Shown: piece by piece, positions 2,478-35,061 of the stretch
How positions within the stretch are numbered: the stretch's first letter is position 1
How the letters are laid out: each line of letters begins with the position of its first letter
From: an uncultured Bacillota bacterium
GTDB lineage: Bacteria > Bacillota > Clostridia > Christensenellales > Borkfalkiaceae
Length of the DNA: 53,154 nt
Direction of reading: 5' to 3'
NCBI GenBank assembly: GCA_949290895.1
Contig: CASETU010000020.1
Location: forward strand, 1 to 53,154
Made by a program: the position numbers and the translations under genes
The notes under the pieces: model-generated
Told to the model about the DNA's origin: nothing
Seen by the model: only the letters and a program-made list of their open reading frames with translations
Databases searched by the model: none

Positions 2478-4382
2478 ATGAAAAAACTGATTGCTCTGTT
2501 ACTTTGCGTGGTTTTATCCATGGGTGCTTTGACGGCATGCAAAAAGACGGAAGAAGATACAGGTGACGAAGGAAATAAAGGAGAAACTGAAATGACGGAC
2601 ATCGATTTGATAAAAAACGGAAAGACGGATTATAAAATCATTTATCCCGCAAACGCAACGGAATTTGAAATGTTTGCCGTAAACGAGCTGGTTTATTTTT
2701 TCAATCAGGCAACGGGTATCAGTCTTGTGAAGATAAGCGATGAAGGCGCGGATACGTCTTCTTCCAACAAATACCTTTCCGTCGGGCAAACTTCGGTATT
2801 CAAGGCTTCTGCCATCACCGCGACGAGGGACGAACTCGGCCCGAACGGATTCAAGATCGAACGTAAGGATAACACCGTATTCCTTGTAGGAAACAAGGAT
2901 ACGGGCACAATGTTTTCCGTGTATGAGTTTTTGCGGCTTAACTTTCATTACGAGTGCTACCATAAAGACGAAATTAAAATCGATAAAAACGTAACCGAAT
3001 TGAAGCTTGCAGATTTTCACGTTTTGAAAAAGCCCGATATCGATCTGGCTTGCGCAAACTACGGAGAATTGATTTTTGATCCTACGTTTGCATATCGCCG
3101 CGGAATGTTGATCGATAAGGATATGTTTATCAACGTCGGCGGAAATTTCTGGCACAATTCTTTCAATTATCTTCCGCCGTCTACCTACGCGAAAGATCAT
3201 AGGGATTGGTATTATTACGGAAACGGGGAAAGTGCAGAGCCCACGCAGCTCGATTACACCAACGACGAAATGCGCCTTGAACTGACAAAGGTTTTAAAGC
3301 AGTATCTTCTGGATAATCCCACGCTGGAAAATATTACGATCACGCATCAGGACAATCGGCATTGGAGCGACAGTGCAAAAAATCTGGAACTGCAAAAGAA
3401 GTACGGCACGGACGCCGCATCTATGATCATTTTCTGCAATAAGGTGGCAAAGGACATCAGAGAATGGCTGAATGAAACAGATCCCGGCAGGGAAATCAAT
3501 ATCATTATGTTCGCTTATTATGCAACGGAGAAAGCGCCGACAAAGTATAATGAGTCGACAAAGAGTTACGAACCGATCGACAGCGAAGTCGTTCTCGATG
3601 AGGACGTATGCGTTTTCTATGCGCCCATCAGTGCGGATTATAATTCTTCGGCGTATTCTCAGTCAAACGTCAATATGTACAATACTTTGCAACAATGGCA
3701 AGTGCTGACGGACAGAATATTTTTATGGACGTATTCCACGAACTTCGATTATTATATGGGAATGTTCAATTCCTTCGACTCCATGCAGAGTATTTACAAA
3801 ATGGCAAGGGATGCCGGCGTGTATTATATTTTCGATCAGGGACAGTTCAACTCGAAAGTGTCTACCGGGTTCAGCCGTTTGAAAATGTATCTCAATTCCT
3901 CTTTGGCGTGGGATGTCGATGCGGATGTGAATGCGCTGACGCAAGACTTTTTCGATAATTATTTCAAAAATGCAAGCGCACCCATGAAAAAACTTTTCGA
4001 CAGCATGCGCTTACATTATGCGTATCTGCGCGATGAAACGGATATGGACAGGGGAATTTACGCGAATATCATAAACGATAAATATTTCCCTAAAGGCGTT
4101 TTGGATAACTGGATGGACATTATCGACGAGGCGTATGACAGCATAGAAGACTTGAAAAATACCGACAGCGCATTGTATCGCACGCTGGAAAACAGAATTA
4201 AGTTGGAAAGCTTAAGTATCAGATACCTACTGATAGAAATTCAGGGCAGCAAATATACGTCGAACCAGCTTTACAAAATGAAATCGGAATTCAAGCTGGA
4301 TGCCACCAAGCTCGGTATGGATCGCTACAAGGAACGCAACGGCGCGTTGAACTTCCTGTGGTCGGAATGGGGTATTTTATGA
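2478..4382 (+). CDS. DUF4838 (GH163-like) lipoprotein
   Basis: 634 residues. A signal peptide ends in the lipobox L-T-A-C21, so the protein should be lipid-anchored outside the cell. Residues about 45-170 form the N-terminal alpha/beta domain common in DUF4838 and related hydrolases (start 'DLIKNGKTDYKIIYP', then 'GTMFSVYEFL'). The rest matches DUF4838: 'THQDNRHW', 'INIIMFAYYATEKAP', 'LWTYSTNFDYY', and 'LAWDVDADVNALTQDFFDNYF' near residue 480. DUF4838 is, to my recollection, the domain of family GH163 (endo-beta-N-acetylglucosaminidases on complex N-glycans). Unlike the two other copies here it lacks the CxC/CxxC cysteine cluster after the QMD/HQD motif. GGAGG at 2464-2468 sets the start. The next gene overlaps by 4 nt (ATGA). 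Confidence 0.85.
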   Translation: MKKLIALLLCVVLSMGALTACKKTEEDTGDEGNKGETEMTDIDLIKNGKTDYKIIYPANATEFEMFAVNELVYFFNQATGISLVKISDEGADTSSSNKYLSVGQTSVFKASAITATRDELGPNGFKIERKDNTVFLVGNKDTGTMFSVYEFLRLNFHYECYHKDEIKIDKNVTELKLADFHVLKKPDIDLACANYGELIFDPTFAYRRGMLIDKDMFINVGGNFWHNSFNYLPPSTYAKDHRDWYYYGNGESAEPTQLDYTNDEMRLELTKVLKQYLLDNPTLENITITHQDNRHWSDSAKNLELQKKYGTDAASMIIFCNKVAKDIREWLNETDPGREINIIMFAYYATEKAPTKYNESTKSYEPIDSEVVLDEDVCVFYAPISADYNSSAYSQSNVNMYNTLQQWQVLTDRIFLWTYSTNFDYYMGMFNSFDSMQSIYKMARDAGVYYIFDQGQFNSKVSTGFSRLKMYLNSSLAWDVDADVNALTQDFFDNYFKNASAPMKKLFDSMRLHYAYLRDETDMDRGIYANIINDKYFPKGVLDNWMDIIDEAYDSIEDLKNTDSALYRTLENRIKLESLSIRYLLIEIQGSKYTSNQLYKMKSEFKLDATKLGMDRYKERNGALNFLWSEWGIL

Positions 4383-10851: not shown

Positions 10852-10998
10852 ACAATTACAGCCAAATAAAAATTCGGCGGTATAAAAAATCGAACAGGCT
10901 TTGCCGATAGTGAACAAAGTAGCAAATATGCGGTCGAAATAAAGGTTGAATGTCGTTTTACGATGTGATAAATTATTAACGGAACGGGAGAGGACAAT

Positions 10999-17234: not shown

Positions 17235-17246
17235 ATAATTGTGAAG

Positions 17247-17280
17247 AAAAACCGGGGGAATAATTCCCTCGGTTTTTTAT
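17247..17280 (+). terminator. Terminator after the InlB-repeat gene
   Basis: 14-bp inverted repeat with one G-U pair (17247-17260 and 17264-17277), loop TAA, then a T-rich tail. Confidence 0.85.
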
Positions 17281-17346
17281 TTTTTGTGAACAAAATCGCA
17301 AATTTAAAATGGAAAGCGACAAGAATTACACGTGGCGGTTGTGATA

Positions 17347-19543: not shown

Positions 19544-21313
19544 ATGAAATTCAGAAAAAAAGCAGGTTGTATGCTGATCGCTTTGGTGTTGGCATGCACG
19601 TTGCTGTTCGGCGCGTGCGGTAAGGTGGTCGATTCCAACGACGACGGAAAACAAATCATCTTTATTTCCGTATACGACGGCGGTACCGGAACGGAATGGG
19701 TGGAAACGCTGGCTGAAAAATGGTCTTCCGAAAACGAAAAATATAAAATCGAAATCATACCCGAAAAGACGTCCGACGTGGTATCCCGCGTCGAGGCGGG
19801 CGAAACCGCTACATCGCCCGCCGCATACTTCCTTGTCGGCATAGAAACATCGCTGAAATATTCTAACAAGCTGGAAGATCTCTCCGACATACTCGAAATG
19901 GAAGTAGACGGGGAAGGTAACGGAACGATAGGAGATAAGCTCGGGCGTACGGAAGATTACAGAAAGCAGTGGGACGAAGTCGCCTCCCGTTTCGGTGAAG
20001 GGTATTACGCTCTGCCGTATGCCGACTCTCTTGCCGGTTGGGTATACGATCACGATACGTTTCTGGAAATGGGCTGGCTGAATCTTGCGCCCGCGTCTGC
20101 GGCGGCGGACGCGTTGGAAGACGGAATTCAGACGCAGCAGGTCGGCAACACCCTAATCGTGACGGGCGATTACGATTATTACGATTCGGGCGATAAACTG
20201 CTTACGGCGGGTAAAGACGGCGTATACGGAACGTATGACGACGGGCAGCCGACGACTGTAGCGGAATGGAACGATATGATCAACAAGATCGTGAAAGTCG
20301 ATAACAAACGTGCGTTCATCTGGTCGGCAGCGAATAAAGAATATATTGACAGTATGATCTGGGCAACAGCTTTTCAATATGCCGGGATTGACGCTTTCAA
20401 TGCGTTTACATACCGCGACAGCGGCGATATGGAGATCGAACTTCATAACGATGACGGTACAACTCGCAGTAAAGTCATTAAAGTAGATACAGGGTATGAG
20501 TTTTATCAGATGGAAGCTTTGTATCAGGCTTATAAATTCGCGGGAGAAAATCTTCTCGTCAGCGCAAACGTGAATCCGAGTTCCGAACAGGGTTCGACAA
20601 ACCATACCGAAACGCAGGGAAGATTTCTTTTGGGTTACAGAGAAGAGGATACCGCGCCGCTAACTGCCATGCTTTTTGACGGCATCTGGTGGGAAAACGA
20701 AGCGCGCCCCGTGTTTACTTCTATCGAGAAAAATCCCGAAGATAAAGAAACGAGGGGATTCGGCAAGCGTGATTATAGGTATATGCTCTACCCGAATTTT
20801 GACGGACAGGTCGGTATTGACGGGAATGGCCACGGCACGGTGTTTTCCTGCATGGATTCGGGCAGCATCATCGTTCCGAAGTCTGCCGATAGGGAAAAAG
20901 TTGCCGCGGTAAAGGATTTTATCGCGTATACGCTTACCGATGAAAATTTGCGTTTCTTTACCAGAGAAACGGGGGTAATGAGAGCGTATAAATACGAACT
21001 CACCGACGAAGATAAAGCGCAAATGACGCCTTTTTCCAGAACGGTTTGGGATATTTACGCCGATACCGAAAACATCGCCATTATCCGTCCGATGGTTGCG
21101 GATGCGGCAAGTCCGTTCGTCAATCTCGGCGGTCTGAAGACAGCGGGGCATTTCGTTTCAAAAATTAACAATATACAATATAACACCGCCATTCACAGTA
21201 TGCAGCAATCCAAAAGTTACGAAGCGGCGTTCAAAGGACTTTCCACTTATATTGCGGACTTTGACTGGGCGCTTTATGTGGAAAATGCGAGAAATTACGG
21301 ATATTATCTGTAA
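19544..21313 (+). CDS. ABC sugar importer, solute-binding lipoprotein
   Basis: 589 residues. The signal peptide ends in F-G-A-C25. The mature N terminus 'IIFISVYDGGTGTEWVETLAEKW' is typical of family-1 extracellular solute-binding proteins for oligosaccharides. It is longer than the usual about 430 residues, as often seen in gut Clostridia. AGAGG precedes the start. Followed at 24 nt by two permease genes. It should capture the oligosaccharide released by the surface proteins and deliver it to the permeases. Ligand not deducible from sequence. Confidence 0.88.
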   Translation: MKFRKKAGCMLIALVLACTLLFGACGKVVDSNDDGKQIIFISVYDGGTGTEWVETLAEKWSSENEKYKIEIIPEKTSDVVSRVEAGETATSPAAYFLVGIETSLKYSNKLEDLSDILEMEVDGEGNGTIGDKLGRTEDYRKQWDEVASRFGEGYYALPYADSLAGWVYDHDTFLEMGWLNLAPASAAADALEDGIQTQQVGNTLIVTGDYDYYDSGDKLLTAGKDGVYGTYDDGQPTTVAEWNDMINKIVKVDNKRAFIWSAANKEYIDSMIWATAFQYAGIDAFNAFTYRDSGDMEIELHNDDGTTRSKVIKVDTGYEFYQMEALYQAYKFAGENLLVSANVNPSSEQGSTNHTETQGRFLLGYREEDTAPLTAMLFDGIWWENEARPVFTSIEKNPEDKETRGFGKRDYRYMLYPNFDGQVGIDGNGHGTVFSCMDSGSIIVPKSADREKVAAVKDFIAYTLTDENLRFFTRETGVMRAYKYELTDEDKAQMTPFSRTVWDIYADTENIAIIRPMVADAASPFVNLGGLKTAGHFVSKINNIQYNTAIHSMQQSKSYEAAFKGLSTYIADFDWALYVENARNYGYYL

Positions 21314-21337
21314 AAAAACGGATGAAAAAAGGGTTGT

Positions 21338-22267
21338 ATGAAAAAACTGCACGATATTGTAATCAGTAAAAAGTTTAGTAGGAACATGTTTATCATCTGT
21401 GTATTTGCCTGGCCGCTGCTGGTCGGGCAAGTGCTCAGTTGGTCGATCAACTGGGAATATTATACCTTAGCGTTCAAAGATTATAACGTTACGGGCAATT
21501 ACACATGGGTGCTGTTTGATAATTTCAAGGCGTACTTGCAAGAACTTGTCAGCGGGGGATCGTATCTTTATACTTCTCTGATCAACTCTTTGAAAATGTA
21601 CATTTTGAATCTGGTCATCAGTATGCCGCTGTATATATTCTTTTCCTATGCGCTTTTCAAAAAATTCCGCGGAAAAAAAGTTGCAATGGCGATCATCATG
21701 TTGCCCATGATCATTTCCGGATTTACGATGTGTCTGGTTTTCAGAAAGTTTGTGGAATCGGCGCTGCCGTCTATTATGAACGAAATTTTCCATATCGAAA
21801 ATTTTCCGAATCTTTTATATGACGAACGATATCTTTTCGGCACGATCATCTTTTATATGATTTGGAGTTCGTTTGCAATGTCTTTGATGATCTATCCCAA
21901 CGCCATGAAGGAAATTCCCGACGAATTGTTTGAAAGCGCGCAGATCGACGGACTAAACAATATGTTCAAAGAATTATGGTACATTATTTTGCCTATGATT
22001 TTTCCCACGCTTTCCACTACGTTGGTATTGGGATATGCTGGAATACTTACACAGACGGGACCGATTTTGGAATTTTATATGTATGATGCACCTTTACAAG
22101 CTTATACGATGGGGTATTATTATTTGTCCTGCGTAAAGACGGCAACGACGTATGAATCTTACCCGCTGCTTGCCGCCGGCGGTTTGATGATGACCGCGGT
22201 CGTCGCGCCGACGACGATGATATTACGGCATCTGTTCAATAAATACGGACCGAGTACGGATATGTGA
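21338..22267 (+). CDS. ABC sugar importer permease 1 (MalF-type)
   Basis: 309 residues with about six membrane segments. The cytoplasmic coupling loop (EAA motif) reads 'DELFESAQIDGLNNMFKEL...LP', which binds the ATPase. Homologous to MalF/UgpA-type carbohydrate permeases. The next gene starts 12 nt after its stop. Confidence 0.88.
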   Translation: MKKLHDIVISKKFSRNMFIICVFAWPLLVGQVLSWSINWEYYTLAFKDYNVTGNYTWVLFDNFKAYLQELVSGGSYLYTSLINSLKMYILNLVISMPLYIFFSYALFKKFRGKKVAMAIIMLPMIISGFTMCLVFRKFVESALPSIMNEIFHIENFPNLLYDERYLFGTIIFYMIWSSFAMSLMIYPNAMKEIPDELFESAQIDGLNNMFKELWYIILPMIFPTLSTTLVLGYAGILTQTGPILEFYMYDAPLQAYTMGYYYLSCVKTATTYESYPLLAAGGLMMTAVVAPTTMILRHLFNKYGPSTDM

Positions 22268-22278
22268 GGGAGAAAGAA

Positions 22279-23208
22279 ATGAAACAGAGCAATTTTAAGC
22301 TGAAAAAAGCGTTTCCTTTTGTGACGAACAGCGGAAACTGGGCGGAGGCGCTATTTAAGGTCATTATCGTGACGTTGATTTTCATTTTGTGTTTTACGCT
22401 GCTCGTTCCGCTATTTTGGATGATTTTAGGTTCGATGAAAGAATATGACGATTTTATTCTTCACACCTTTCAATGGCCGGAAAAGTTTACTTTAGAACCT
22501 TATAAAGACATTTGGAACATGCTGACGCTGGAAGTTTATACTTCGCGGGGACGAGTGATTTACAATATCGTCGATATGTTTTTGTGGTCGCTGTTATATG
22601 CCGTTATGCAGCCGCTTTTCGGTTTGTTTTTTACCTGTTCCATGGCATACGTTTGTGCGAAATACAAAACGGTGTTTACGGAATTCATCGTGGCGTATGG
22701 CATTTTGTTGATGATAATCCCCATTATGGGAACATTGCCCGCGACGATGAAAGTTTACAATACGCTGGGCATTTATGACAATATGTTTATGATGATATTG
22801 GTCGGCAGCGGCGGTTCGTTTTCCGGTTTGCAGTTTTTGATGTTTTTGGCTGCTTATAAAAATATTCCGTCCGATTATTCGGAAGCGGCGTTTTTGGACG
22901 GAGCGGGGCATTTCAGAACGTATCTGCAAATCTTTTTCCCGATGATCTTGCCTACTTTCGTCATGTTTTACGTGCTGGCGTTTTTCGGCGTATGGAACGA
23001 TTACGGAACATTTTTGATCTGGTTGCCCAGCTATCCTAACCTCGCTTACGGAATGTATATGTTCCAGCAGCGCGCGTCGTCGCTCGGCGTGGGTATGCCT
23101 ACCGTGCTTGCGGGATTCGTCATCGTTTCCATTCCTTCGGCAATTCTTTATTTCATCACGCACGATCTGATTGCCGCTAAATTTACGGTCGGTGGGTTAA
23201 AAGGATGA
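22279..23208 (+). CDS. ABC sugar importer permease 2 (MalG-type)
   Basis: 309 residues from ATG 22279; GGGAG at 22268-22272 supports this start over the GTG at 22264. Six membrane segments and an EAA loop 'SDYSEAAFLDGAGHFRTYL...P', typical of MalG/UgpE permeases. It should pair with the upstream permease. No ATP-binding subunit is encoded in the operon, which usually means a shared MsmX-type ATPase elsewhere. Overlaps the next gene by 4 nt. Confidence 0.88.
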   Translation: MKQSNFKLKKAFPFVTNSGNWAEALFKVIIVTLIFILCFTLLVPLFWMILGSMKEYDDFILHTFQWPEKFTLEPYKDIWNMLTLEVYTSRGRVIYNIVDMFLWSLLYAVMQPLFGLFFTCSMAYVCAKYKTVFTEFIVAYGILLMIIPIMGTLPATMKVYNTLGIYDNMFMMILVGSGGSFSGLQFLMFLAAYKNIPSDYSEAAFLDGAGHFRTYLQIFFPMILPTFVMFYVLAFFGVWNDYGTFLIWLPSYPNLAYGMYMFQQRASSLGVGMPTVLAGFVIVSIPSAILYFITHDLIAAKFTVGGLKG

Positions 23209-23945
23209 AAAAACTGATTATTTTATTTGCGGTATGTCTGCTTTTAGTCGGGGGCACTTACATAACGGTAAGCGCGGAAACTTCACCGACTTTGAACGAA
23301 TCGTATACACTGAATGTCGACGAAAACGGAATGATAGAAATTCCCGCGGTAGAAAGCGGGGCGGCGGGCGAGGAATATCTCGTGAGTATTTTTAGAACGT
23401 CCGACCTTGCGCACCCCCTTTACGAAGACGTGGCAGTGGGTAAGTTCAAAATGGGGTATACGGGTAGTTTTACCTTTATTTACGAGCTCGTCGGAGGAAC
23501 GCCGGAAGATTCGTTGATGACTTCGGTAACGGTAAAAGATAGCATCGCGCCCGTTTTGAATATCAGCGGGCTGGAAGAAACTTACTTTGTGGGGGATACC
23601 ACTTCCTTTAAAGTGGAGTATTCCGACAATATGGACAGCGGAGAAAAATTGATTTACACGCTTCGCGTATGGTATGAGGACGCGCCTTACACCGCCGCCG
23701 TACAGGAAAACGGACAGGTGTTGTTCGACGTAAAGGGGGATTACCGCCTGGTATTCACGGTGCGTGATTCTTCCGATAACACCGTGGTGCAGGAGTTTTC
23801 CTATAAAGTTGCGGTAAACGGGTTCGATTATTCCATGCTGATCCCCGTACTCGCGGTAGCCATCATGCTGGCAATGTTTATCGGTCCTATCATTTTTGTC
23901 GTGAAAAGCGAATTCCGTCCCGTTAAAAAGGAGAAAAAGAAATGA
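23205..23945 (+). CDS. Membrane-anchored Ig-like protein
   Basis: 246 residues; ATGA overlaps with both neighbours. An N-terminal signal peptide (cleavage near 'VSA') is followed by two Ig-like beta domains (about residues 28-110 and 113-205). A single membrane helix lies at about 212-235 ('LIPVLAVAIMLAMFIGPIIF') with a basic tail K-K-E-K-K-K inside. It is placed between the permeases and the 1,164-residue Ig protein, and its position suggests an accessory or docking protein for the importer. No named family recognised. Confidence 0.75.
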   Translation: MKKLIILFAVCLLLVGGTYITVSAETSPTLNESYTLNVDENGMIEIPAVESGAAGEEYLVSIFRTSDLAHPLYEDVAVGKFKMGYTGSFTFIYELVGGTPEDSLMTSVTVKDSIAPVLNISGLEETYFVGDTTSFKVEYSDNMDSGEKLIYTLRVWYEDAPYTAAVQENGQVLFDVKGDYRLVFTVRDSSDNTVVQEFSYKVAVNGFDYSMLIPVLAVAIMLAMFIGPIIFVVKSEFRPVKKEKKK

Positions 23946-26900
23946 AAAAGAAAATTATACTCGCCTTGCTTTCACTGACGTTGATATGCAGCGTTTCGGC
24001 AACCGTCATTTTCGCGCAGGATCAAAATGTTTCCGCGCGGCAAGGCGGAGAGTATACCCTCGTGTTGGAAATGTATACGGTGGATAATTATACCGAAGGC
24101 GTGATCGTCAAAGAACCGAACGGAAATCGGGCAGAAGTGAGCGGCGGTACGTTTTTGGTGAAAACGACGGGAACGTACGAAATCGTTTATCCCGACGGAA
24201 CGGTCAAGTATCTTTATTCCTATGCAAAGAGAATTCCTTCGGAATTTGAATATTCTGCCGTTCTTGAAAGCGAATATACGGCGGGGGAAATCGTGCGCTT
24301 ACCCAAAGCGACTATAAAAAATCCCGTCAAAACGTATACGGAATATGACGTAATCGTCCGTGCAAACGGGGAAGAAGTGGCGAAAATTACCACCGAGATA
24401 CCGCAAAACGGGTATCCGTTCAAAATTCCCAAAGCAGGCGCTTATACCGTTTCGTATGTTTATACCGACGTGTTCGGAATAGAAGAATCGGACGAATTGT
24501 CTTTCTCCGCTGTGAACGAAAAAATCCTGGTTATCGAAAGCGAACTTCCCGAACAGATCAGCTTTGGCGAAAGTTTGACCTTATCCGCTTACGGATATTA
24601 TAAGGAAAAGCAGTATGTGAGTAAGATCACCGCCAAAACGCCTTCGGGAAAGACGGAGCAGATCGCCGGCAGGAAATATACGCCCGAAGAAAGGGGTGAA
24701 TACGAGTTCGTATTTGCGGCGGATATCGAAGGAGAAACGATCAGCCAGACTCGGAAAGTTTTTGTGGAATACACTTCCCGCAGCCTTTTGGGTAATTACA
24801 TCGGCATAACGGATGTTCAAAGCGGTGTTAAGCTTCCCGACTACAGTCAAAATACGGGAAACGCCACGTTGGTGCGCGCGAGTTCTTCGGGGTCTTCGTT
24901 CATGTATTCCAAGGTGATAAATCTCAGAGAATTCGACAAAAACGACAGCCTGATTGAATTTGAAATGTATTCCGACGGCGTGGCGGAAGCTTCCGCCGTA
25001 CAAGTCACCTTGATCGACGTTTACAACGAGGCAAACACTTTGACTGTGTACTGGTGGGCAAATCCGTGGTCGACCAACATGAGCTATATGCTGGTACGCT
25101 GTAACGGACTGTCTTTGGGAAGAGATAACGAAAGCGGTTCAAATCTTCCGCGCGGGGAAAACGATTTCGGCACTAACGCCCGCAATACGTTTTCCGGGTA
25201 TAAAAACAAAAATTCGCTGCCGTTTAATTTTCAGTACGATTATCAGGATAAAGCCGTTTATTCTTACGTGCTGGATGTAAATACGCAGTACAACATTTTG
25301 GATCTCGATAACGAAAAGGAAATCCCACAGGCGAACCTGTGGAGCGGGTTCACGGCGGATCTCGTGCTGATGAAAGTGGAATTCGTCACCAACAACAACG
25401 CGGGAATGTACATCACTAAACTTGCTGGCGAAGATATGTGCGGCGACGTTATCGTTTCCCCTAAGGACGACAATCTGCTTTGCCTTACAAGCGAATATGA
25501 GGTTTTACCCGATGGTGCGGTGGGGTATTCTTACCGCCTGCCCACGGTGCTCGGCAGCAATGCGGCGTTGGGGGAATTCGATGTAACGCAAAAGTTATAT
25601 TGCGGCGAAGAAGATATATCCTCCCAGATATCGGACGGCGCTTTCGTACCGAAGAGCGCGGGCGAATATAAAGTGGAATTTTCCGCAAAAGATTTCTTCG
25701 GCAACATCGTGACCAAGACCATGGAATTCGTCGTCAACGAAAAGCCCAACGAAATCAGTTTCGATCTGTCGGACGATCAAAGCGTAATCATCACGCAAAA
25801 TTATGTCGTGCCTCCGATCAATGCGACAGGCGGTTCGGGTAAAATCGACGTGACGGCGGAAGTTTATTTCGACGGAAAGTTGCTTACACCCGATATCAAC
25901 AACCGCTACGCTATCGAAAAATTCGGAGATCTCGAGTTGGTGGTTACGGCGAAAGATTTCATCGGATATACCTATTCGCAAACTTATAAAATCAACATAG
26001 AAAAAAACTATTTTTACGTGGATATCGGCGGCGTGCCCGATGCGGTGCGCGCGGGATCTACTGTGACCTTCCCCGCAATGAAAGCGATCGATTACAATAC
26101 CGATACTGTTTATGAAACGGCGCTGTTCGTCAACGGAACGGAATTGGAGGGCACAAGCTACGTTGTTCCCGAAGACGTTACTTCCCTGGAACTTCGTTAT
26201 ACGGTAAAAGGATTTGACGACGGAGAAAAAGACAAAGTATTTACCGTAAAAGTCATTCCCAAAACCATCGAAAATCAGCACGATTTCCTTCTCTTTGAAA
26301 ATGCGGAAACGGCGTATCTCGATCCGGGGCTGTATTTCAACCCGAACGGGGAAGAATTTTCTCTTAAAATGCCGTATCCCGTTCCGATGGAAAATCTTGT
26401 ACTCGGATTTTCCGTCAATGATTTCGAAAAAGATTTCGAAAGTCTGCAAATTATCTTCACCGATTATTATTCGGCATCGGAACGCGTTGTGCTCTCTATA
26501 TCGGATTTGAAAGAGGGAAAAGCTCTTCTCGGCGTAAACGGAAACCAAAATTCCGCCGAAATCGAATATTATCAAAATAAGTATAACAGTACTGTCGGAA
26601 TGGAAGGATTGGAAGTATCGTTTGAGGGGAAACAATATAATTCGTTCGAGTTTGTGTTTAAGAATGAAAATTGCAGAGTGCGCAATGCAAGCGGCAGAAC
26701 GCTGGCAACCATCGACACGTTAGAAAACGGAGATAATTTCGGCGGTTTTTCCAGCGGTCTGGTTCGTGTGGAGTTTCGCTTGCAGGGTATAAGCGGAGAA
26801 GCGTCCTTTATCCTTTCCAAAGTAGGCAATCAGTTGTTTAACTATTATATCAACGACGTAGATTATGAAGATAAGGATAATAACGGCGCATTGCTCCTTT

Positions 26901-27436
26901 CCGAGCCGTTCGACAAGAGCGACAGGAAAATCGGGGAAACGCTTGTCATTCCCGCTGCCAAGGCGTACGACGTTTTGCAGCAGGAAGCCGTTGTATTCTT
27001 ATCGGTTACCGCGCCGGACGGCAAGGCGATATGCAGCAACGTATCGATTGAAAAGGATTATGAAGTGGTGCTCGATCAGTACGGTTCGTATTCCGTGAAA
27101 TACGTTACCACCGATTCCGTGGGAAGAAGTTCCACCACAACTTACCGCGTAAAAGTGATCGATGAGATCGCGCCGACTTTACAGGTGAACGGGAATTACG
27201 AAGAAATTGTTGCGGTCGGCACGGAAATTACCGTTTGCGGAGCAAAGGCGAGCGATAACGTAGACGGCGAAATCGATGTGGAAATCATGATTTTGCGCCC
27301 CGATTCCAAATTGCTCGTAGTCAATGCCGGCGATCGTTATACGTTTGCGGAAAGAGGATTGTATACCGTGATCTACCGCGCGGTCGATGAGCAGTATAAC
27401 ATTACCCGCACGGAATTCAAGATAGAGGTAAGGTGA
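23942..27436 (+). CDS. Large secreted Ig-like / jelly-roll repeat protein
   Basis: 1,164 residues, signal peptide cleaved near 'IFA-Q'. Several Ig/HYR-like modules with 'GEY.V.Y.A.D.FGN' signatures alternate with two larger beta domains (about 280-500 and 770-960) that may bind carbohydrate. The C-terminal 350 residues match the partial protein at 1-2457 ('KIGETLVIPAAKAYDVL' against 'TIGSKAVIPAAAAYDVL'). No membrane anchor, LPXTG or catalytic signature is visible. As in the first copy, the next gene encodes a DUF4838 lipoprotein, so the two genes form a duplicated module. Likely binds the substrate for the DUF4838 enzyme. Confidence 0.78.
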   Translation: MKKKIILALLSLTLICSVSATVIFAQDQNVSARQGGEYTLVLEMYTVDNYTEGVIVKEPNGNRAEVSGGTFLVKTTGTYEIVYPDGTVKYLYSYAKRIPSEFEYSAVLESEYTAGEIVRLPKATIKNPVKTYTEYDVIVRANGEEVAKITTEIPQNGYPFKIPKAGAYTVSYVYTDVFGIEESDELSFSAVNEKILVIESELPEQISFGESLTLSAYGYYKEKQYVSKITAKTPSGKTEQIAGRKYTPEERGEYEFVFAADIEGETISQTRKVFVEYTSRSLLGNYIGITDVQSGVKLPDYSQNTGNATLVRASSSGSSFMYSKVINLREFDKNDSLIEFEMYSDGVAEASAVQVTLIDVYNEANTLTVYWWANPWSTNMSYMLVRCNGLSLGRDNESGSNLPRGENDFGTNARNTFSGYKNKNSLPFNFQYDYQDKAVYSYVLDVNTQYNILDLDNEKEIPQANLWSGFTADLVLMKVEFVTNNNAGMYITKLAGEDMCGDVIVSPKDDNLLCLTSEYEVLPDGAVGYSYRLPTVLGSNAALGEFDVTQKLYCGEEDISSQISDGAFVPKSAGEYKVEFSAKDFFGNIVTKTMEFVVNEKPNEISFDLSDDQSVIITQNYVVPPINATGGSGKIDVTAEVYFDGKLLTPDINNRYAIEKFGDLELVVTAKDFIGYTYSQTYKINIEKNYFYVDIGGVPDAVRAGSTVTFPAMKAIDYNTDTVYETALFVNGTELEGTSYVVPEDVTSLELRYTVKGFDDGEKDKVFTVKVIPKTIENQHDFLLFENAETAYLDPGLYFNPNGEEFSLKMPYPVPMENLVLGFSVNDFEKDFESLQIIFTDYYSASERVVLSISDLKEGKALLGVNGNQNSAEIEYYQNKYNSTVGMEGLEVSFEGKQYNSFEFVFKNENCRVRNASGRTLATIDTLENGDNFGGFSSGLVRVEFRLQGISGEASFILSKVGNQLFNYYINDVDYEDKDNNGALLLSEPFDKSDRKIGETLVIPAAKAYDVLQQEAVVFLSVTAPDGKAICSNVSIEKDYEVVLDQYGSYSVKYVTTDSVGRSSTTTYRVKVIDEIAPTLQVNGNYEEIVAVGTEITVCGAKASDNVDGEIDVEIMILRPDSKLLVVNAGDRYTFAERGLYTVIYRAVDEQYNITRTEFKIEVR

Positions 27437-27444
27437 ATTCGTTT

Positions 27445-29472
27445 ATGAAAGCAAAACACATTTTATTGGTTTTACTCATATTGATTTTATCGTTTTCGGC
27501 CGTGACGGCTACTTCCTGTAAGGGGAAAGAGCCGGAAATTCCGCCCGCTTATGAAGAAGACGACGGAATCGACCGCAGTCAAGTGCTCGATTATATCGTT
27601 AAGGACGGGGTCAGCGAATACACCATCGTTTACGGCGATGCGGCGAGTAGTGCGGAAGTGTTTGCCGCGTCGGAATTTCAGCTTTATGTCGGCAAGATGA
27701 CTGGCGTATATCCTTCGCAGACGGCGGAGAGCAACGTCAACTTTGACGAAAACAGCAAAATCGTCTCCGTGGGGAACACGGCTTTGCTGGAATCTATGAA
27801 CTTCGACGTGGATTATTCCGCGATGAACACCGACGGTTTTATCATAAAGACGTACGGAAAGAATGTTTTTATCAACGGTGCGAGCGACAGCGGCACGATT
27901 TACGGCGTTTATGATTTTTTGGAAAAAATATGCAACCTTAAATTTCTGGCTTACGATTATACGTATATTCCCGAACTGACGGAAATTCCCGTTTATAAAA
28001 TGGACGTTTTGGAAATTCCGGCGTTTGAAACCAGATCGTATATGTCGGGTTCTGCCACGGCGGCGGCCAACGAACTTAATATGGTGCACATGAGAATGGC
28101 AAACGATTATACCGTCATTCCCGAAGAGCACGGCGGCGGCATGAGCAATTAGTGGTATCAGGGCTATAAAGATATGCATAACTCGCTGGAATACGTAGAC
28201 CCTAAAATTTATTATACCGAAGATAATAAAGAAGCCAATGCCCATATATTTTACCGCGATAAAAACGATAAGGTTTTGGATATTTGTTATACCGACGGCA
28301 TAACGGAGGACGGCAAGCTGGATACGAGTATGCCCGTCAGTGCGGCGAAAATCGCGCTGGAATCGTTGAAAGGCTACGTGACCGACGCGGTGGAACAGGG
28401 GCTTAGCTGTAAATATTTCATGTTCGGGCAAATGGACTTAACTTCTGCGTGTTCCTGTTCGAGATGTCTTGCCGCAACAGAAAAGTACAGTCGGAGCGGT
28501 AATTTGATCCGCTTTGTGAATGTTTTGGCGGAAGAAATTCAGAAATGGGCGGATACGGCGTTAAACGGCAAAGAGGTGACGATCGTTACCTTCGCTTATC
28601 AGTATACCGATACCGCGCCCGTCAGACAATTGTCTAACGGAGAATATGAACTTTTGGACGCTACCGTAAAACCGAGAGATAACGTGTGTATCCGCCTTGC
28701 TCCTATCGAAGCGTATAATTATTGGTCGCTTTCCGATGAAAAACAAAGTCCTAAATATAATACCTGGTTTAAACAATGGAGCATAACGGGCAACAACTTC
28801 TGTCTGTGGACGTATCACACCATGTTCGCAAAATCGTATTTCTGGTATTATCCTACTTTGCCTGCTTGGCAGGAAAATCTGCGTGATTTCAGGGATATGG
28901 GCGTGAAATATATTTTAATGCAGTCCTCGCATACCGAAAAGCACGATTGGCAGGCGTTGATGGAAACGTACATTGCATCAAAACTGCTTTGGGATCCCGA
29001 CCGCGACGTAAACGCCTTGCAAAACGAGTTTATCGAATACTATTACGGCGATCTTGTTAGCGACAATATCAAGCTGTTTATGCGGAATTTTGACGAACAT
29101 TACGCCTTGCTTGCTGCGGACGGCAATTCCGGCGTTAACTTCATGCTGTGGAATCCCGCCCTGTGGAGTATGGAAAATCAGCCGTTGAACTTGCTCACGT
29201 TGCAGGACGGTATCGTGGACGATTCGCTGGAAATCATTGCGGAAAGCGATTTGCCGAGTACGGAGAAAAAATCGCTTACCGATCGGTTAAAGCGTTTGAA
29301 ACTGACTACCTTATTTATGATCATCGAAAATTATTCCGGATATTATCCGGGCGACGAGGACGGCAAAATTGCCATGGCAAACGAATTTTTTGACATCTGT
29401 TCCGAACTCGGCGTGGTGCAATATGCGGAAGGATTATCGGTGGCAAGCTTAAAGACAACGCTTTTGGGATAA
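27445..29472 (+). pseudogene. DUF4838 (GH163-like) lipoprotein gene interrupted by in-frame TAG
   Basis: Start at ATG 27445 (GGTG-type site upstream; GTG 27433 is an alternative). A lipoprotein-like signal ends 'TATSC'. The frame stops at TAG 28150-28152 after 235 residues, but the very next codons continue the protein in the same frame (W-Y-Q-G-Y-K-D-M-H-N-S-L-E-Y) to the TAA at 29470. Alignment by eye with the 29477-32182 protein places the TAG next to the conserved W, opposite a Tyr. Without the TAG the product would be about 675 residues with all DUF4838 landmarks, including Q-M-D and the CSCSRC cysteine cluster. It may be a recent nonsense mutation, a strain polymorphism or assembly error, or readthrough. 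A restart at ATG 28174 has no good ribosome site. Confidence 0.75.
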
Positions 29473-29476
29473 CGAT

Positions 29477-32182
29477 ATGATCATTGATAACATCATTAAA
29501 AACGGAAAATCCGAATATACCGTGATTTATCCGAACGAAGCCGCCGCTCCCGAAATTTTTGCGGCAAAAGAACTCGTAAAATACTTAAAACAGGCGAGCG
29601 GCGCGGAACTTTCGATACGAAAGGAAAGCGATAATATTTCGCAAAAATTCATAAGCATAGGCAAAACGCGCGCTTTTGAAGAACTCGGCATACGCCTCGA
29701 TCGGGAAGAGATGAACGACGACGGTTTTATCATCAAAACGGTCGGCAAAAATCTCTTTCTCACCGGAGCGATGCCCAAAGGTACGATATATTCCGTCTAC
29801 GATTTCCTGGAAAAATTTATCGGATTAAAATTCGTGGCGGAAGATTGCACGATCGTTCCGTCGGTCGATGTTTTGGACCTGTGCGACTGGGATATTGTGG
29901 AGATACCCGATTTTGCCATGCGCGCGTATATGTCGGGGATGACGACTTGGGGGCACGAAGAAAACATCGTTCACATGCGCATGGGGCATGAATACGCGCG
30001 CGTACCCGAGGAAATGGGCGGAAATATGTATTGGAGCGACGTACTGAAGAATTCGCACAATACGTTGGAGTACGTACCGCCCGAAATCTATTATACCGAA
30101 GAAAACAAAGCGGAAAACGCGCACATGTATTACGAAATCAACGGTAAGGTGATGGATATTTGCTTTACCGACGGGATAACGGACGACGGCGAACTGGACG
30201 AAACCATGCCCGTTTCCTGCGCAAAGGTCGCCATTGAGTCGTTAAAACGCGTGGTGTTGGCGTCTAAGCCCGATTGCAAATATTTTATGCTTGGGCAAAT
30301 GGATATTCAAAAGACTTTCTGCGAATGCAAAAGATGCGTTGCCGCCGCCGAAAAATATAAGCGGAGCGGTATTCTTATCCGTTTTGCAAACGTGGTGGCA
30401 AGGCATATTCAGAAATGGGCGGACGAAGAATTGAACGGGCGAAAGATCAATATCGTCATTTTCGCTTATCAGTATACGGAAATGGCGCCCGTTGAATGGA
30501 ATTCTCACGTCAACGCTTATGAATTGCTTTCGCCGCAGGTGGAGCCGGCAGAAAACATTTACATCCGACTCGCTCCCATCGAAGCATCATTTTACTATCC
30601 GTTTTCTCATCCGAAACAAATCCAGAAATATGCCGAATGGTCCAAACAATGGCAGGCGTGCGGACATAATTTTATGATATGGACGTATCACACCATGTTT
30701 GCGTTCAGCTTTTTCTGGTATTATCCGACGCTTCCCAGCTGGAACCGCAATATCGAAGAGTTCAAGAATATGGGCGTAAGTTATGTATTTTTACAGTCTT
30801 CGCATAACGAAAGTCAGGATTGGAAAGCTATCATGGAGACGTACATAGCTTCCAAAAAACTTTGGAACTCCAAACTCGACGTATACGATCTGCAAGCGGA
30901 ATTCAATGCGGCTTATTATTCCATTGCCGCGCCTTATGTGAACGCATTTATCGATATGCTCGATAAACATTATAAAAAACTTGCGGACGATCCCGAAGTA
31001 GGGGCGGCGTTTAACATTTACGACGGGGCGCTTTGGGATATTAAAAATATGCCCTATGAGTTTTTGCAAAAACTGCTCGGCGTGCTGGAAGAAGGCGTGC
31101 GTAAGGTGGAAAACAGCGATTTAAGCAAGAGCGAGCAAAGAGAACTTCTCAAAAGACTCAGCCGCGTAAAGCTTACGCCGCTTTATATGCTGATGTATAA
31201 TTACGGAAATTACAGAAAGAACGATATGCGCGGCAGGGCGAAAATCGCGAAACAGTTTTTCGATATTTGCGATAAGCTCGGCGTTCAGTATTATGCGGAA
31301 GGTCCGATGATCAAAGACCTGAAGGAAAAGTATTTGGACGAAAAACCCGGAAACGTTACGAAATATTCTTTCCGTTCATTGTATAAAGACCCGTATCACA
31401 TCGATATTTACCGAAACAAGGAGACGCTCAGTTATAACCACGTGCACGATTTTTGGGAATTCATGATCGTGGCGAAAGGGCGTATCTCGCTTGTCGTGAA
31501 CGGCAGAAAGGTGGAACTATGCGAAAACGAAATTTTATTGATTCGCCCGCCCCACAGGCACAGTTTGGTGCAAAGCGAGTCCAAGCCTAACTCCGAGGTC
31601 ATCAATGTTTCCGTCGTCAACGACTATATGCTGAATTTTCTCAAACAATATGAGGTTTCCGTAAAAGAATTTCAGGAACTTGCGGAAAACATCATTCACA
31701 TCAAGCTGAACGCGATACAGTCGGAAATGCTGATGGATCTCGTGCTGGAAACGGAAAAAAAGAACTATATAAACGATCCGAATCTCAACGCGTTCAAAAA
31801 TATCCTGCTTGCGGAAATCATGAAAAACGTTCTCAGAAAGAAGATGATTTCGCAAAACGGCTATCCCGAATGGATTGAAAACATGATGATCGCGATGAAC
31901 AATCCCGCGAATTACTCCATGCAGATAAGCGACTTTTATAAAATGAGCGGATACGGAAAAACGTATTGCACGAAACTCTTTACGGAAAACGTGGGAATGT
32001 CGCCCATCAAATATTTCACGCATTCGAAAATCAACTATGCGTGTATGTTGCTCGATATAACCGACAATACGATTTTGCAGATCGCAAATGAAATCGGATT
32101 TTATTCGCTTAGCCATTTCAATCATTGTTTCCTTACGGAAAAAGGAATGACGCCGAACCAGTATCGAAAACGCGGCGTCTGA
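29477..32182 (+). CDS. DUF4838 (GH163-like) domain fused to cupin and AraC DNA-binding domain
   Basis: 901 residues without a signal peptide, hence cytoplasmic. Residues 1 to about 610 are a complete DUF4838 protein, close to the interrupted gene just upstream ('FAYQYTEMAPV', 'WTYHTMFAFSFFWYYPTLP', 'METYIASKKLW', cysteine cluster C-E-C-K-R-C). Residues about 640-740 form an AraC-type cupin ('HVHDFWEFMIVAKG', 'ELCENEILLIRPPHRH'). Residues about 800-901 are the two helix-turn-helices of AraC regulators ('MQISDFYKMSGYGKTYCTKLF' region; 'ILQIANEIGFYSLSHFNHCF' region, ending 'GMTPNQYRKR'). The likely role is a transcription factor whose sensor is a glycan-hydrolase-like domain. The frame is continuous through the joins. 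Starts 4 nt after the previous gene. Confidence 0.9.
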   Translation: MIIDNIIKNGKSEYTVIYPNEAAAPEIFAAKELVKYLKQASGAELSIRKESDNISQKFISIGKTRAFEELGIRLDREEMNDDGFIIKTVGKNLFLTGAMPKGTIYSVYDFLEKFIGLKFVAEDCTIVPSVDVLDLCDWDIVEIPDFAMRAYMSGMTTWGHEENIVHMRMGHEYARVPEEMGGNMYWSDVLKNSHNTLEYVPPEIYYTEENKAENAHMYYEINGKVMDICFTDGITDDGELDETMPVSCAKVAIESLKRVVLASKPDCKYFMLGQMDIQKTFCECKRCVAAAEKYKRSGILIRFANVVARHIQKWADEELNGRKINIVIFAYQYTEMAPVEWNSHVNAYELLSPQVEPAENIYIRLAPIEASFYYPFSHPKQIQKYAEWSKQWQACGHNFMIWTYHTMFAFSFFWYYPTLPSWNRNIEEFKNMGVSYVFLQSSHNESQDWKAIMETYIASKKLWNSKLDVYDLQAEFNAAYYSIAAPYVNAFIDMLDKHYKKLADDPEVGAAFNIYDGALWDIKNMPYEFLQKLLGVLEEGVRKVENSDLSKSEQRELLKRLSRVKLTPLYMLMYNYGNYRKNDMRGRAKIAKQFFDICDKLGVQYYAEGPMIKDLKEKYLDEKPGNVTKYSFRSLYKDPYHIDIYRNKETLSYNHVHDFWEFMIVAKGRISLVVNGRKVELCENEILLIRPPHRHSLVQSESKPNSEVINVSVVNDYMLNFLKQYEVSVKEFQELAENIIHIKLNAIQSEMLMDLVLETEKKNYINDPNLNAFKNILLAEIMKNVLRKKMISQNGYPEWIENMMIAMNNPANYSMQISDFYKMSGYGKTYCTKLFTENVGMSPIKYFTHSKINYACMLLDITDNTILQIANEIGFYSLSHFNHCFLTEKGMTPNQYRKRGV

Positions 32183-32194
32183 AAAGGAGAAATT

Positions 32195-34186
32195 ATGAAT
32201 TTATTCGACAGGTTTATGGCGATAGAGGAACCCTACGGTGCGGGGATTTTCGAAGATGAGAGCGCGCCGCGCTTTGTCCGCTTGGCGAACGGTCAGAAGA
32301 GATTTTGGGAATTTGCCGATATGCCTGTTTACGGCGGCGGGAAATTGTATCCGTCGGGCAGGCGTTTTTCCGTGAAATACGGAATATATCCTTATTTTTC
32401 CCCTACATATTACGTGGAAGAAAGCGTTTTAAAACCGAAAGACGAAGCGCTGAACAAAATTGCGGTGGAGGAATTTTTCACGCTTAAATCGTTGGTTTTT
32501 AACCCGAAACTGCAAAGGCATCTCGTCGGCGGGGACGGATTCGTTCATTCCATTCCAAACTACGGGCGCGTAGTGAAAGAAGGTTTGAATTCCTATGCCG
32601 CCCGCGTGGAGAATATGCCCGAAGGGGAAATCAAACGCGGCTTGAAGATCATTCTCGACGGGATACGCATTTATCATACGCGCGCGCTGAAATTGCTGCG
32701 GGAGCAAAACGGCGATGCCGAACTCATATCCGCGTTGGAAAAAGTTCCGTTTTCTCCCGCCGAAAACATTTACGAGGCGCTTGTCTGCTGGAATTTTATT
32801 TATTATATCGACAGCTGCGATAACCCGGGCAGGCTGGATAACGATTTGAACCCGTATCACAAGGGGGAGGACGTTACTGCCGTTATTCGCGAACTTTTTC
32901 AGAACGTGGACGCAAACGACGGCTGGACCTGCGCGCTCGGACCCGATTATAACGAACTTACAAAGCAATGCCTTGTGGCGATTCGCGGGATACGGCGTCC
33001 GAACGTGGAGCTGCGCGTTACGAAAGACATGCCGCAGGAAATTTGGGATACCGCAAAGGCTACGCTTTTGAGCATGACGGGACATCCCGCTTTATATAAC
33101 GAAGAGCTTTATCAGAAAAAGCTGGCGGAATTTTTCCCCGAAATGCCCGCGGAGGATAGGAAAAAATTTTGCGGCGGCGGTTGTACGGAAACCATGTTTG
33201 CCGGCATTTCCAACGTCGGTTCTCTCGACGCGGGCATAAACCTTTTGTATATTTTGGAAGATATGCTCTATCGCAGGTTGCCCGAGTTTGCCGATTTCGA
33301 AAGTTTTTATGCGGCGTATTTGCGGGAAATCACAGCGATAAAGGACGAATTTGTGCGGGAGCTCAACCGTTACGAAAAGGACAGGGCGACATTCCGTCCG
33401 CAACCCGTGCGCACGCTCCTTATTGACGATTGCATCGACAGGAATAAGGATTTTTATGGCGGCGGAGCGCGTTGGCATTTTTCCATTCTGAATTACGCCG
33501 GTTTTGTAAACGCGGCGGATTCGCTCCTTGCCGTGAAAGAACTTGTGTTCGATAAGCGCGTTTACGGCGCGAGGGAATTTGCAAGGGAGTTAAAAGCGCA
33601 GACGGACGAGATGAAGAACGCTTTGCGGCGCTGTCCGTGTTACGGTATCGACGACGATGTCGCCGACGGTTTTGCCGCGCGTTTTGCAAGGGATCTCGTT
33701 GCGCTCGTTAAAAACGACAGGGATTATCTCGGCGGCAAGATCGTGACGGCGTCCATACAGTTTACCACCTACCTGAATGCGGGAAAGGGAATTTTGCCGA
33801 CGCCTGACGGCAGAGAAGAAAACGCGCCGCTGTGCGATTCTTTGGGCGCAATTTACGGCAAAGACCGCGCGGGGGCGGTGGCAATGCTAAATTCCGTCAC
33901 CAAACTGCCGCTGGGTGATATGATCGGAACGCCCGTTTTGAATCTCAGGTTGCAAAAAGGTTATCTCGATAAAGCGTTTGAAGGATTGGTAAAGGGGTAT
34001 TTTGCCCGCGGCGGAATGCAGATGCAAATTACTTGTATGAGCAAAGAGGAGATGCTCGATGCGCTCGATCATCCCGAACGTCACAGGAGCCTTATCGTCA
34101 GGACGGGCGGATATGCGGAATATTTCGTCAATCTGGACAGAGAATTTCAGGAAACGCTGATAAAGCGTACGGAGTTTTCCGAATGA
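32195..34186 (+). CDS. Short glycyl radical enzyme of unknown substrate (PFL-like)
   Basis: 663 residues, clearly shorter than most family members (about 780-850). The PFL-like barrel is recognised by 'RRPNVELRVTKDMP' and 'HPALYNEE'. The thiyl-radical loop reads F-C326-G-G-G-C330-T-E332: the G-C-x-E pattern of dehydratase/lyase-type glycyl radical enzymes, not the C-C pair of pyruvate formate-lyase. The C-terminal glycyl-radical motif is R-T-G-G639-Y-A, 24 residues from the end. AAGGAG precedes the start. The activase gene overlaps by 4 nt. Activity should be strictly anaerobic in the cytoplasm. The substrate is unknown; the operon suggests a sugar or sugar-derived alcohol or acid. Confidence 0.88.
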   Translation: MNLFDRFMAIEEPYGAGIFEDESAPRFVRLANGQKRFWEFADMPVYGGGKLYPSGRRFSVKYGIYPYFSPTYYVEESVLKPKDEALNKIAVEEFFTLKSLVFNPKLQRHLVGGDGFVHSIPNYGRVVKEGLNSYAARVENMPEGEIKRGLKIILDGIRIYHTRALKLLREQNGDAELISALEKVPFSPAENIYEALVCWNFIYYIDSCDNPGRLDNDLNPYHKGEDVTAVIRELFQNVDANDGWTCALGPDYNELTKQCLVAIRGIRRPNVELRVTKDMPQEIWDTAKATLLSMTGHPALYNEELYQKKLAEFFPEMPAEDRKKFCGGGCTETMFAGISNVGSLDAGINLLYILEDMLYRRLPEFADFESFYAAYLREITAIKDEFVRELNRYEKDRATFRPQPVRTLLIDDCIDRNKDFYGGGARWHFSILNYAGFVNAADSLLAVKELVFDKRVYGAREFARELKAQTDEMKNALRRCPCYGIDDDVADGFAARFARDLVALVKNDRDYLGGKIVTASIQFTTYLNAGKGILPTPDGREENAPLCDSLGAIYGKDRAGAVAMLNSVTKLPLGDMIGTPVLNLRLQKGYLDKAFEGLVKGYFARGGMQMQITCMSKEEMLDALDHPERHRSLIVRTGGYAEYFVNLDREFQETLIKRTEFSE

Positions 34187-35061
34187 AAGGAAAAATTTTC
34201 AACCTGATACGCGGCTCTACGGAAGACGGCAAAGGGTTAAGAACGGTTGTCTATTGCAGCGGTTGTTCTTTGAATTGCAGTTGGTGCCAGAATCCCGAAG
34301 GCAAAACGGAAAAACCACTTTTGTATTATGCTCATAAATGCGTCGGTTGCGGCGCATGCGTGCGGGTTTGCGGGCGCGGCTGTCATGCGATTGTTTTGGG
34401 AAAACACGTGTTTTCACGAACGAATTGTATTCGCTGCGGGGAATGTGCGCAAGTCTGTCCTGCGGGTGCGCTTGTGTTTATGCAAAGCGAAACGGAGGCA
34501 AAGGAACTCGTCGGACTGATTGCGCGGGATAAGGATTTTTTCGCGGCGTCGGGCGGCGGCGTAACTTTTTCGGGCGGAGAATGTGTTTTACAAAATGATT
34601 TTCTCGTGGAGACGTTACGCTTATGCAAGGAAAACGGCATCGATACCGCAATCGAAACGGCGCTTTTTTACGATTATTCGCTTTTGAAAAGACTGTTGCC
34701 TTATGCCGACTGTGTGCTCGCCGATTTGAAACATACCGACAGCGCGAAACATAAAGAATTTATCGGCTTCGGCAATGAAAAAATACTGACAAATTTGAAA
34801 TTGCTTTTGAAAGAAAATACAAAGACCGTCGTCCGTTTTGCATTGATACCGGGATTTAACGACGATGAAATTTCGTTGAAAGAAATGGCTTTGTTCGTTA
34901 AGGAAAACGGCGGCAGAGAAATAGAGCTTTTGAATTTCAACGATACGATAGAAAATAAATATTCGGCTTGCGGGCAAACGGTCGCAAGAAAGTTCGGCAA
35001 GGCTTTTTCGCCGGAAGAGTTCGCGAAGAAGAAGGAATATGTAAGTAAAATTTTATCTTAA
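34183..35061 (+). CDS. Glycyl radical enzyme activase (radical SAM)
   Basis: 292 residues from ATG 34183, which overlaps the TGA of the enzyme gene; the frame is open further upstream but inside that gene. The radical SAM cluster motif is C28-x3-C32-x2-C35. An inserted ferredoxin-like part has two 4Fe-4S motifs (C53/C56/C59/C63 and C82/C85/C88/C92), typical of activases for non-PFL glycyl radical enzymes. The 'FSGGE' motif for SAM binding follows. It should abstract hydrogen from Gly639 of the partner using S-adenosylmethionine. Confidence 0.93.
   Translation: MKGKIFNLIRGSTEDGKGLRTVVYCSGCSLNCSWCQNPEGKTEKPLLYYAHKCVGCGACVRVCGRGCHAIVLGKHVFSRTNCIRCGECAQVCPAGALVFMQSETEAKELVGLIARDKDFFAASGGGVTFSGGECVLQNDFLVETLRLCKENGIDTAIETALFYDYSLLKRLLPYADCVLADLKHTDSAKHKEFIGFGNEKILTNLKLLLKENTKTVVRFALIPGFNDDEISLKEMALFVKENGGREIELLNFNDTIENKYSACGQTVARKFGKAFSPEEFAKKKEYVSKILS

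Follow-up and report, generated by a model that had tools for sequence, protein, structure and literature searches.

The window (the whole stretch of 53,154 nucleotides that was analysed) contains a gene in which a glycosidase-like DUF4838 protein and an AraC-type transcriptional regulator share a single reading frame. What does the DUF4838 half contribute to such a regulator? An earlier note on this DNA had proposed that it serves as the ligand sensor, which is plausible. The relevant features are:

2478..4382 (+): third, more distant DUF4838 lipoprotein
10910..10927 (+): candidate operator GTGAACAAAGTAGCAAAT, 72 nt upstream of the GH36 start codon
10999..13113 (+): GH36 alpha-galactosidase, the first gene past the other promoter gap with the common site
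17246..17278 (+): terminator-like hairpin of 15 pairs, upstream operon boundary
17286..17303 (+): candidate operator GTGAACAAAATCGCAAAT, 83 nt upstream of the start codon that opens the ABC/DUF4838 operon
19544..23208 (+): carbohydrate ABC importer, with a solute-binding lipoprotein (19544-21313) and two permeases (21338-22267 and 22264-23208)
23942..27436 (+): Ig-like surface protein of 1164 aa, found in the same operon slot in relatives
27433..29472 (+): secreted DUF4838 lipoprotein gene, a paralogue with one in-frame TAG (28150-28152), 50% identical to the DUF4838 half
29477..32182 (+): fusion gene P0001, GH67N plus DUF4838 plus a full AraC regulator (ORF, Pfam)
29477..31342 (+): DUF4838 half, residues 1-622, with an N-terminal alpha/beta domain, a TIM-like barrel and a helical C-terminal domain, signal peptide absent (Pfam, AlphaFold2, fold matches, conserved residues)
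31352..32179 (+): AraC half, residues 626-901, with a cupin (654-726) carrying the conserved His/Glu, a helical linker and two helix-turn-helices (HTHs) (Pfam, alignment, AlphaFold2)
32195..35061 (+): short glycyl radical enzyme (32195-34186) and activase (to 35061), downstream and co-directional

Frame, domains and junction of the fusion gene

The fusion frame starts with ATG, ends with TGA and comprises 901 codons with zero internal stops. A hydrophobic signal stretch was looked for in residues 1-70 and none was found; both observations bear out the earlier description of a continuous frame without a signal peptide. Pfam profiles above their gathering cut-offs place Glyco_hydro_67N at residues 13-110 (3e-8), DUF4838 (PF16126) at residues 119-493 (5e-33; 115 bits versus a gathering cut-off of 26.6, covering positions 1-325 of the 325-position profile), AraC_binding at residues 654-726 (3e-8, 34.1 bits) and HTH_18 at residues 824-899 (7e-16, 58.7 bits), while HTH_AraC reaches 41.1 bits in the C-terminus. 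Of the domain make-up that had been read from the letters, DUF4838, the AraC cupin and the two HTHs are confirmed, but the N-terminal part is not DUF4838 alone, GH67N being present as well. Tests for the AraC/XylS family found both the two C-terminal HTHs and the AraC-type N-terminal cupin.

Homology to DUF4838 proteins stops at about residue 620 and homology to AraC regulators begins at about residue 627, which indicates that two whole proteins have been joined nearly without a linker (approximately 10 residues). Misassembly at this junction had been named as a possible source of error, and the sequence gives no sign of it: the region 31201-31500 shares no exact repeat of at least 16 nt with the rest of the window, the codon-position GC pattern is unbroken across the junction (GC3 of 0.56 and 0.59 for the two halves), the window contains no ambiguous bases, and homology passes from the DUF4838 half into the AraC half in the same frame. 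An assembly artefact at the junction is therefore unlikely. The source MAG is 86% complete and consists of 199 contigs, and the fusion rests on one of them.

The DUF4838 half, its secreted sister and the AraC half

The two halves were modelled separately, not as one chain. The model of the DUF4838 half (AlphaFold2, 84 sequences) has a mean pLDDT of 95.3 and displays the domain order of the GH67/GH84/GH115-type fold, i.e. an N-terminal alpha/beta domain, a TIM barrel and a helical domain. It matches GH115 and GH84 structures with Z values of 14-17.5 across 377-517 residues: GH115 with Z up to 17.5 (Foldseek E 1e-13) and GH84 with Z about 14, followed by GH67 with about 13, at an identity of only 10-13% in these structural alignments. 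The profile-to-PDB sequence match is limited mainly to the GH67 N-terminal domain, and sequence comparison of the DUF4838 half retrieved no solved GH163 structure. DUF4838 may be the domain of family GH163, a lead provided by a paper in which a DUF4838 protein bears the GH163 label (PMC9870897). A GH163 endo-beta-N-acetylglucosaminidase of B. thetaiotaomicron hydrolyses GlcNAc-beta-1,2-Man in complex N-glycans (PMC10154615).

Columns kept in at least 85% of 53 DUF4838 relatives were considered conserved, and the DUF4838 half retains 30 out of 30, including H194, D276, N305, Y331, W392, W402 and Y404. Its terminal branch (0.66) is shorter than the median (0.76), which gives no sign of decay. 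The cleft is thus predicted to be intact, and the combination of a full glycosidase fold with all 30 conserved columns suggests that the DUF4838 half is probably still an enzyme or a binder; it probably retains catalytic competence.

The secreted paralogue immediately upstream carries a signal stretch with a lipobox-like cysteine. In the tree, it forms a sister pair with the DUF4838 half (SH-aLRT 99), in agreement with the earlier note, which had named this interrupted gene as the closest relative in the window and had considered duplication followed by fusion to be likely. In relatives, too, a cytoplasmic DUF4838 copy frequently groups with the secreted copy from the same locus (SH-aLRT 98 to 100), so that a duplication in which the signal peptide was lost seems to have occurred repeatedly; concerted evolution could produce the same picture. 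A tandem duplication of the neighbouring DUF4838 gene, followed by fusion to an AraC gene, is the simplest history and a likely one. Tandem secreted and cytoplasmic copies that are mutual sisters occur at window positions 27433-31342 and at L083, L087, L095 and L098. Four to five tandem DUF4838 genes are present at L190, L195 and L212, in other taxa (Parachristensenella, a Thermoguttaceae MAG and an Oscillospiraceae MAG). In two large proteins of 1350 and 1032 aa (L075:13850-17899, +, and L085:7395-10490, +), DUF4838 is C-terminal and the N-terminal parts are without a Pfam match.

The TAG at 28150-28152 interrupts the secreted paralogue, both flanks of which are otherwise intact. A reading as pyrrolysine was rejected, no PylS being detected above cut-off in the genome, and TAG terminates only one of the 23 main window genes. 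Both observations make a nonsense mutation or a consensus error likelier than recoding. Owing to this TAG, the supply of a ligand by the secreted sister is uncertain.

The AraC half can be aligned end to end with standalone AraC regulators, at identities of up to about 31%, and retains the cupin His/Glu residues that are invariant among AraC relatives. Its model (AlphaFold2, pLDDT 82) contains the cupin, a helical linker and the helices of two HTHs. Because the cupin is intact, the AraC half may already own a sensor and DUF4838 need not be the sole one; with a complete cupin, DUF4838 may even be irrelevant to sensing. The models of ChbR, RhaS/RhaR and MelR match fusion residues 639-899 over their cupin-plus-HTH length, but the fusion scores 61.6 bits against the ChbR equivalog cut-off of 264 (NF007633) and is also far below the equivalog cut-offs of RhaS/RhaR and MelR. 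Unlike the fusion, these regulators lack a 620-residue glycosidase-like domain. Besides the fusion, no other AraC-type frame was found in the window.

The operon, its candidate operators and the rarity of the fusion

From 17386 to 38847, the genes are co-directional and lie no more than a few tens of bases apart. Among their products are a surface protein, the binding lipoprotein and two permeases of the importer, Ig-like proteins, the secreted DUF4838 protein, the fusion, and the glycyl radical enzyme and activase. Relatives show strong conservation of the order binding protein, permease, permease, Ig protein and secreted DUF4838. In many of them, a second DUF4838 gene without a signal follows the secreted copy, always without AraC. 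These cytoplasmic proteins of related Clostridia resemble the fusion in their domains, their slot after the secreted copy and their conserved residues, and differ from it in lacking AraC. In 7 of 40 related regions, an AraC regulator is encoded no more than about 10 kb from a DUF4838 gene; in G841, an AraC gene lies directly downstream of a secreted/cytoplasmic DUF4838 pair and is convergent to it. The glycyl radical enzyme next to the fusion (663 aa) contains a CxE-type cysteine motif (GGGCTE) and an RxGGY glycyl loop; its scores lie far below all NCBIfam equivalogs, and none of the 40 related operon regions contains a counterpart. Two further window proteins of 617 and 628 aa (13115-14968 and 35116-37002) have no Pfam/NCBIfam match, and a relative of both is encoded at L068.

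The earlier note had suggested a search for operator sites common to two promoter gaps, and a site of this kind was found. The gaps before 10999 (GH36) and 17386 share GTGAACAAA-N-T-N-GCAAAT in the same orientation, with 16 of 18 positions identical. The statistics are modest: 4 of 300 dinucleotide shuffles matched this 18-bp site, and another, unrelated pair of window gaps scores equally high (3 of 60 shuffles). Without mismatches, the pattern occurs in the 1.72-Mb genome at these two places only, from which it was itself built. The sequence is regarded as a candidate operator, modestly better than chance. The word GAAAGCG, also present in both gaps, was rejected as an operator word, as it occurs 46 times in the window.

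Protein searches of 299 genomes of the phylum, 391 of the class, 398 of the family, 396 of the order and 5 of the genus (approximately 1,400 distinct genomes, estimated after overlaps) revealed no second DUF4838-AraC fusion, and pattern scans of 85,000 genomes and tblastn of plasmid records revealed no second frame of this kind; E-values were strict in the family and order runs, and the best 80 of 396 loci were retained from the genome scan, so that a divergent fusion could escape. Among 274 DUF4838 frames (overlapping loci counted), the fusion is the sole case with AraC. The open literature that was covered, in which DUF4838 itself hardly figures, describes no regulator combining the two, in line with the earlier impression that this architecture is undescribed. 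Among the relatives found in the order, Pumilibacter muris is the closest that bears a name. G819 and G781 contain long AraC frames that were rejected as fusions, being ordinary AraC genes with a noise frame upstream, and in L219 the DUF4838 gene is followed by no more than a separate fragment of an AraC HTH.

A different fusion is present in a genome of the same family (G773; L151:4247-6286, -), where a 680-aa AraC regulator contains a C-terminal GH5 endo-mannanase-like domain (E 3.7e-37 versus 8d89). As in the window fusion, AraC is covalently linked to a glycoside hydrolase domain, but here AraC comes first and GH5 last, and the GH family is unrelated. The reversed domain order and the unrelated family point to an independent fusion. 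No second AraC-GH5 fusion was found in 61 genomes of the family.

Possible functions of the fusion protein

The most likely reading, offered tentatively, is that the fusion is an autoregulatory, glycan-responsive AraC regulator that uses the DUF4838 cleft as its input. An AraC/XylS-family transcription factor would thus bear, at its N-terminus and in a single cytoplasmic protein, a DUF4838 domain that began as a copy of the glycosidase of its own operon. The secreted DUF4838 protein would release an oligosaccharide outside the cell, which would be imported by the ABC transporter and bind in the fusion's DUF4838 cleft. A filled cleft would alter dimerisation or DNA binding of the AraC half, and the fusion would activate its operon as well as the neighbouring GH36 unit via sites such as 10910-10927 and 17286-17303. 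The signal may drop as the DUF4838 half consumes the ligand, and a second, smaller sugar may be sensed by the cupin that the AraC half has kept. The analysis establishes the anatomy, conservation, origin and context of the fusion, from which its ligand, activity, DNA binding and coupling are inferred.

Several observations favour this sensor function: both halves are complete, with intact conserved residues, the DUF4838 half has a confident glycosidase fold and no sign of decay, the protein is cytoplasmic and the window's only AraC-type frame, the operon encodes an ABC importer in a gene order that relatives conserve, AraC regulators recur near DUF4838 genes in relatives, RsgI6 and the AraC-GH5 fusion are precedents for glycoside hydrolase domains as regulatory inputs, and the two promoter gaps share a site. 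The cytoplasmic form suits a protein that has to reach both DNA and an imported sugar. The proposal is weakened by the single occurrence in one MAG contig, the intact cupin, the modest support for the common site and the TAG in the secreted sister. The AraC regulator Btr carries a substrate-binding-protein domain at its C-terminus, and E. coli XylR combines an AraC HTH with a periplasmic-binding-type domain. Both resemble the fusion in joining an AraC DNA-binding part to a large domain; theirs is a ligand-binding protein derived from uptake machinery, whereas that of the fusion is glycosidase-like. A glycoside hydrolase domain attached to a regulator as its input is found in the anti-sigma factor RsgI6 of Clostridium thermocellum, in which a GH10 domain with very low activity binds its polysaccharide (PMC4711584). 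RsgI6 is a membrane protein that senses polysaccharide outside the cell, while the fusion is cytoplasmic and predicted to bind DNA.

The data fit almost equally well with an active enzyme that is tethered to an ordinary AraC regulator sensing through its cupin. Such a bifunctional protein, i.e. a working intracellular DUF4838 glycosidase joined to a regulator that senses through its own cupin and is perhaps fed the product, is possible, although it falls well short of an even chance. It would account for the retention of both the invariant cupin His/Glu and the conserved DUF4838 residues, and standalone cytoplasmic DUF4838 copies fill the same operon slot in many relatives; yet enzyme and regulator rarely need to be covalently linked, and the near absence of a linker suggests some coupling. 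A more specific version of the sensor proposal is rather unlikely, namely that the duplicated operon glycosidase, with its catalytic site intact, is the sensory half of the transcription factor, recognises exactly the oligosaccharide of its secreted sister and switches the response off by consuming it. In that case, glycosidase-AraC one-component sensors would form a recurrent class, with the fusion and the AraC-GH5 protein as members.

The near-linkerless join exactly at the DUF4838 end and the AraC start would also be expected if the loss of a stop codon had incidentally merged a DUF4838 gene with the AraC gene beside it, the halves working independently. This origin would agree with the occurrence in one genome only and with the AraC genes that adjoin DUF4838 pairs in relatives. 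An internal start near 31300-31340 may in this case also yield a free AraC protein, and purine-rich stretches do precede in-frame ATG and TTG codons near the junction, but these are also explained by the conserved YAEG/LKEK codons. As both halves have remained intact despite divergence, which in the AraC half leaves at most about 31% identity to standalone relatives, an incidental fusion is improbable. The chance is very small that a wrong stop or a short stretch in the assembly or consensus of the draft MAG makes two genes merely look joined: the single, incomplete and fragmented MAG and the unexplained in-frame TAG in the neighbouring gene would be compatible with such an artefact, but the repeat-free junction, the continuous coding pattern, the lack of ambiguous bases and the homology that crosses the junction without a frame change argue against it.

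Even if the DUF4838 half is not a sensor, the gene is a clean fusion that links a regulator to its pathway in an uncultured gut lineage, in which assigning regulators is otherwise difficult. With the DUF4838 half as its input, the regulator would inherit its specificity from an enzyme, and the substrate of an uncharacterised glycan locus would become readable from its regulator. Glycosidase sensing of the RsgI type would then extend from anti-sigma factors that sense outside the cell to cytoplasmic DNA-binding proteins, and there would be a route to sugar sensors made from glycosidases.
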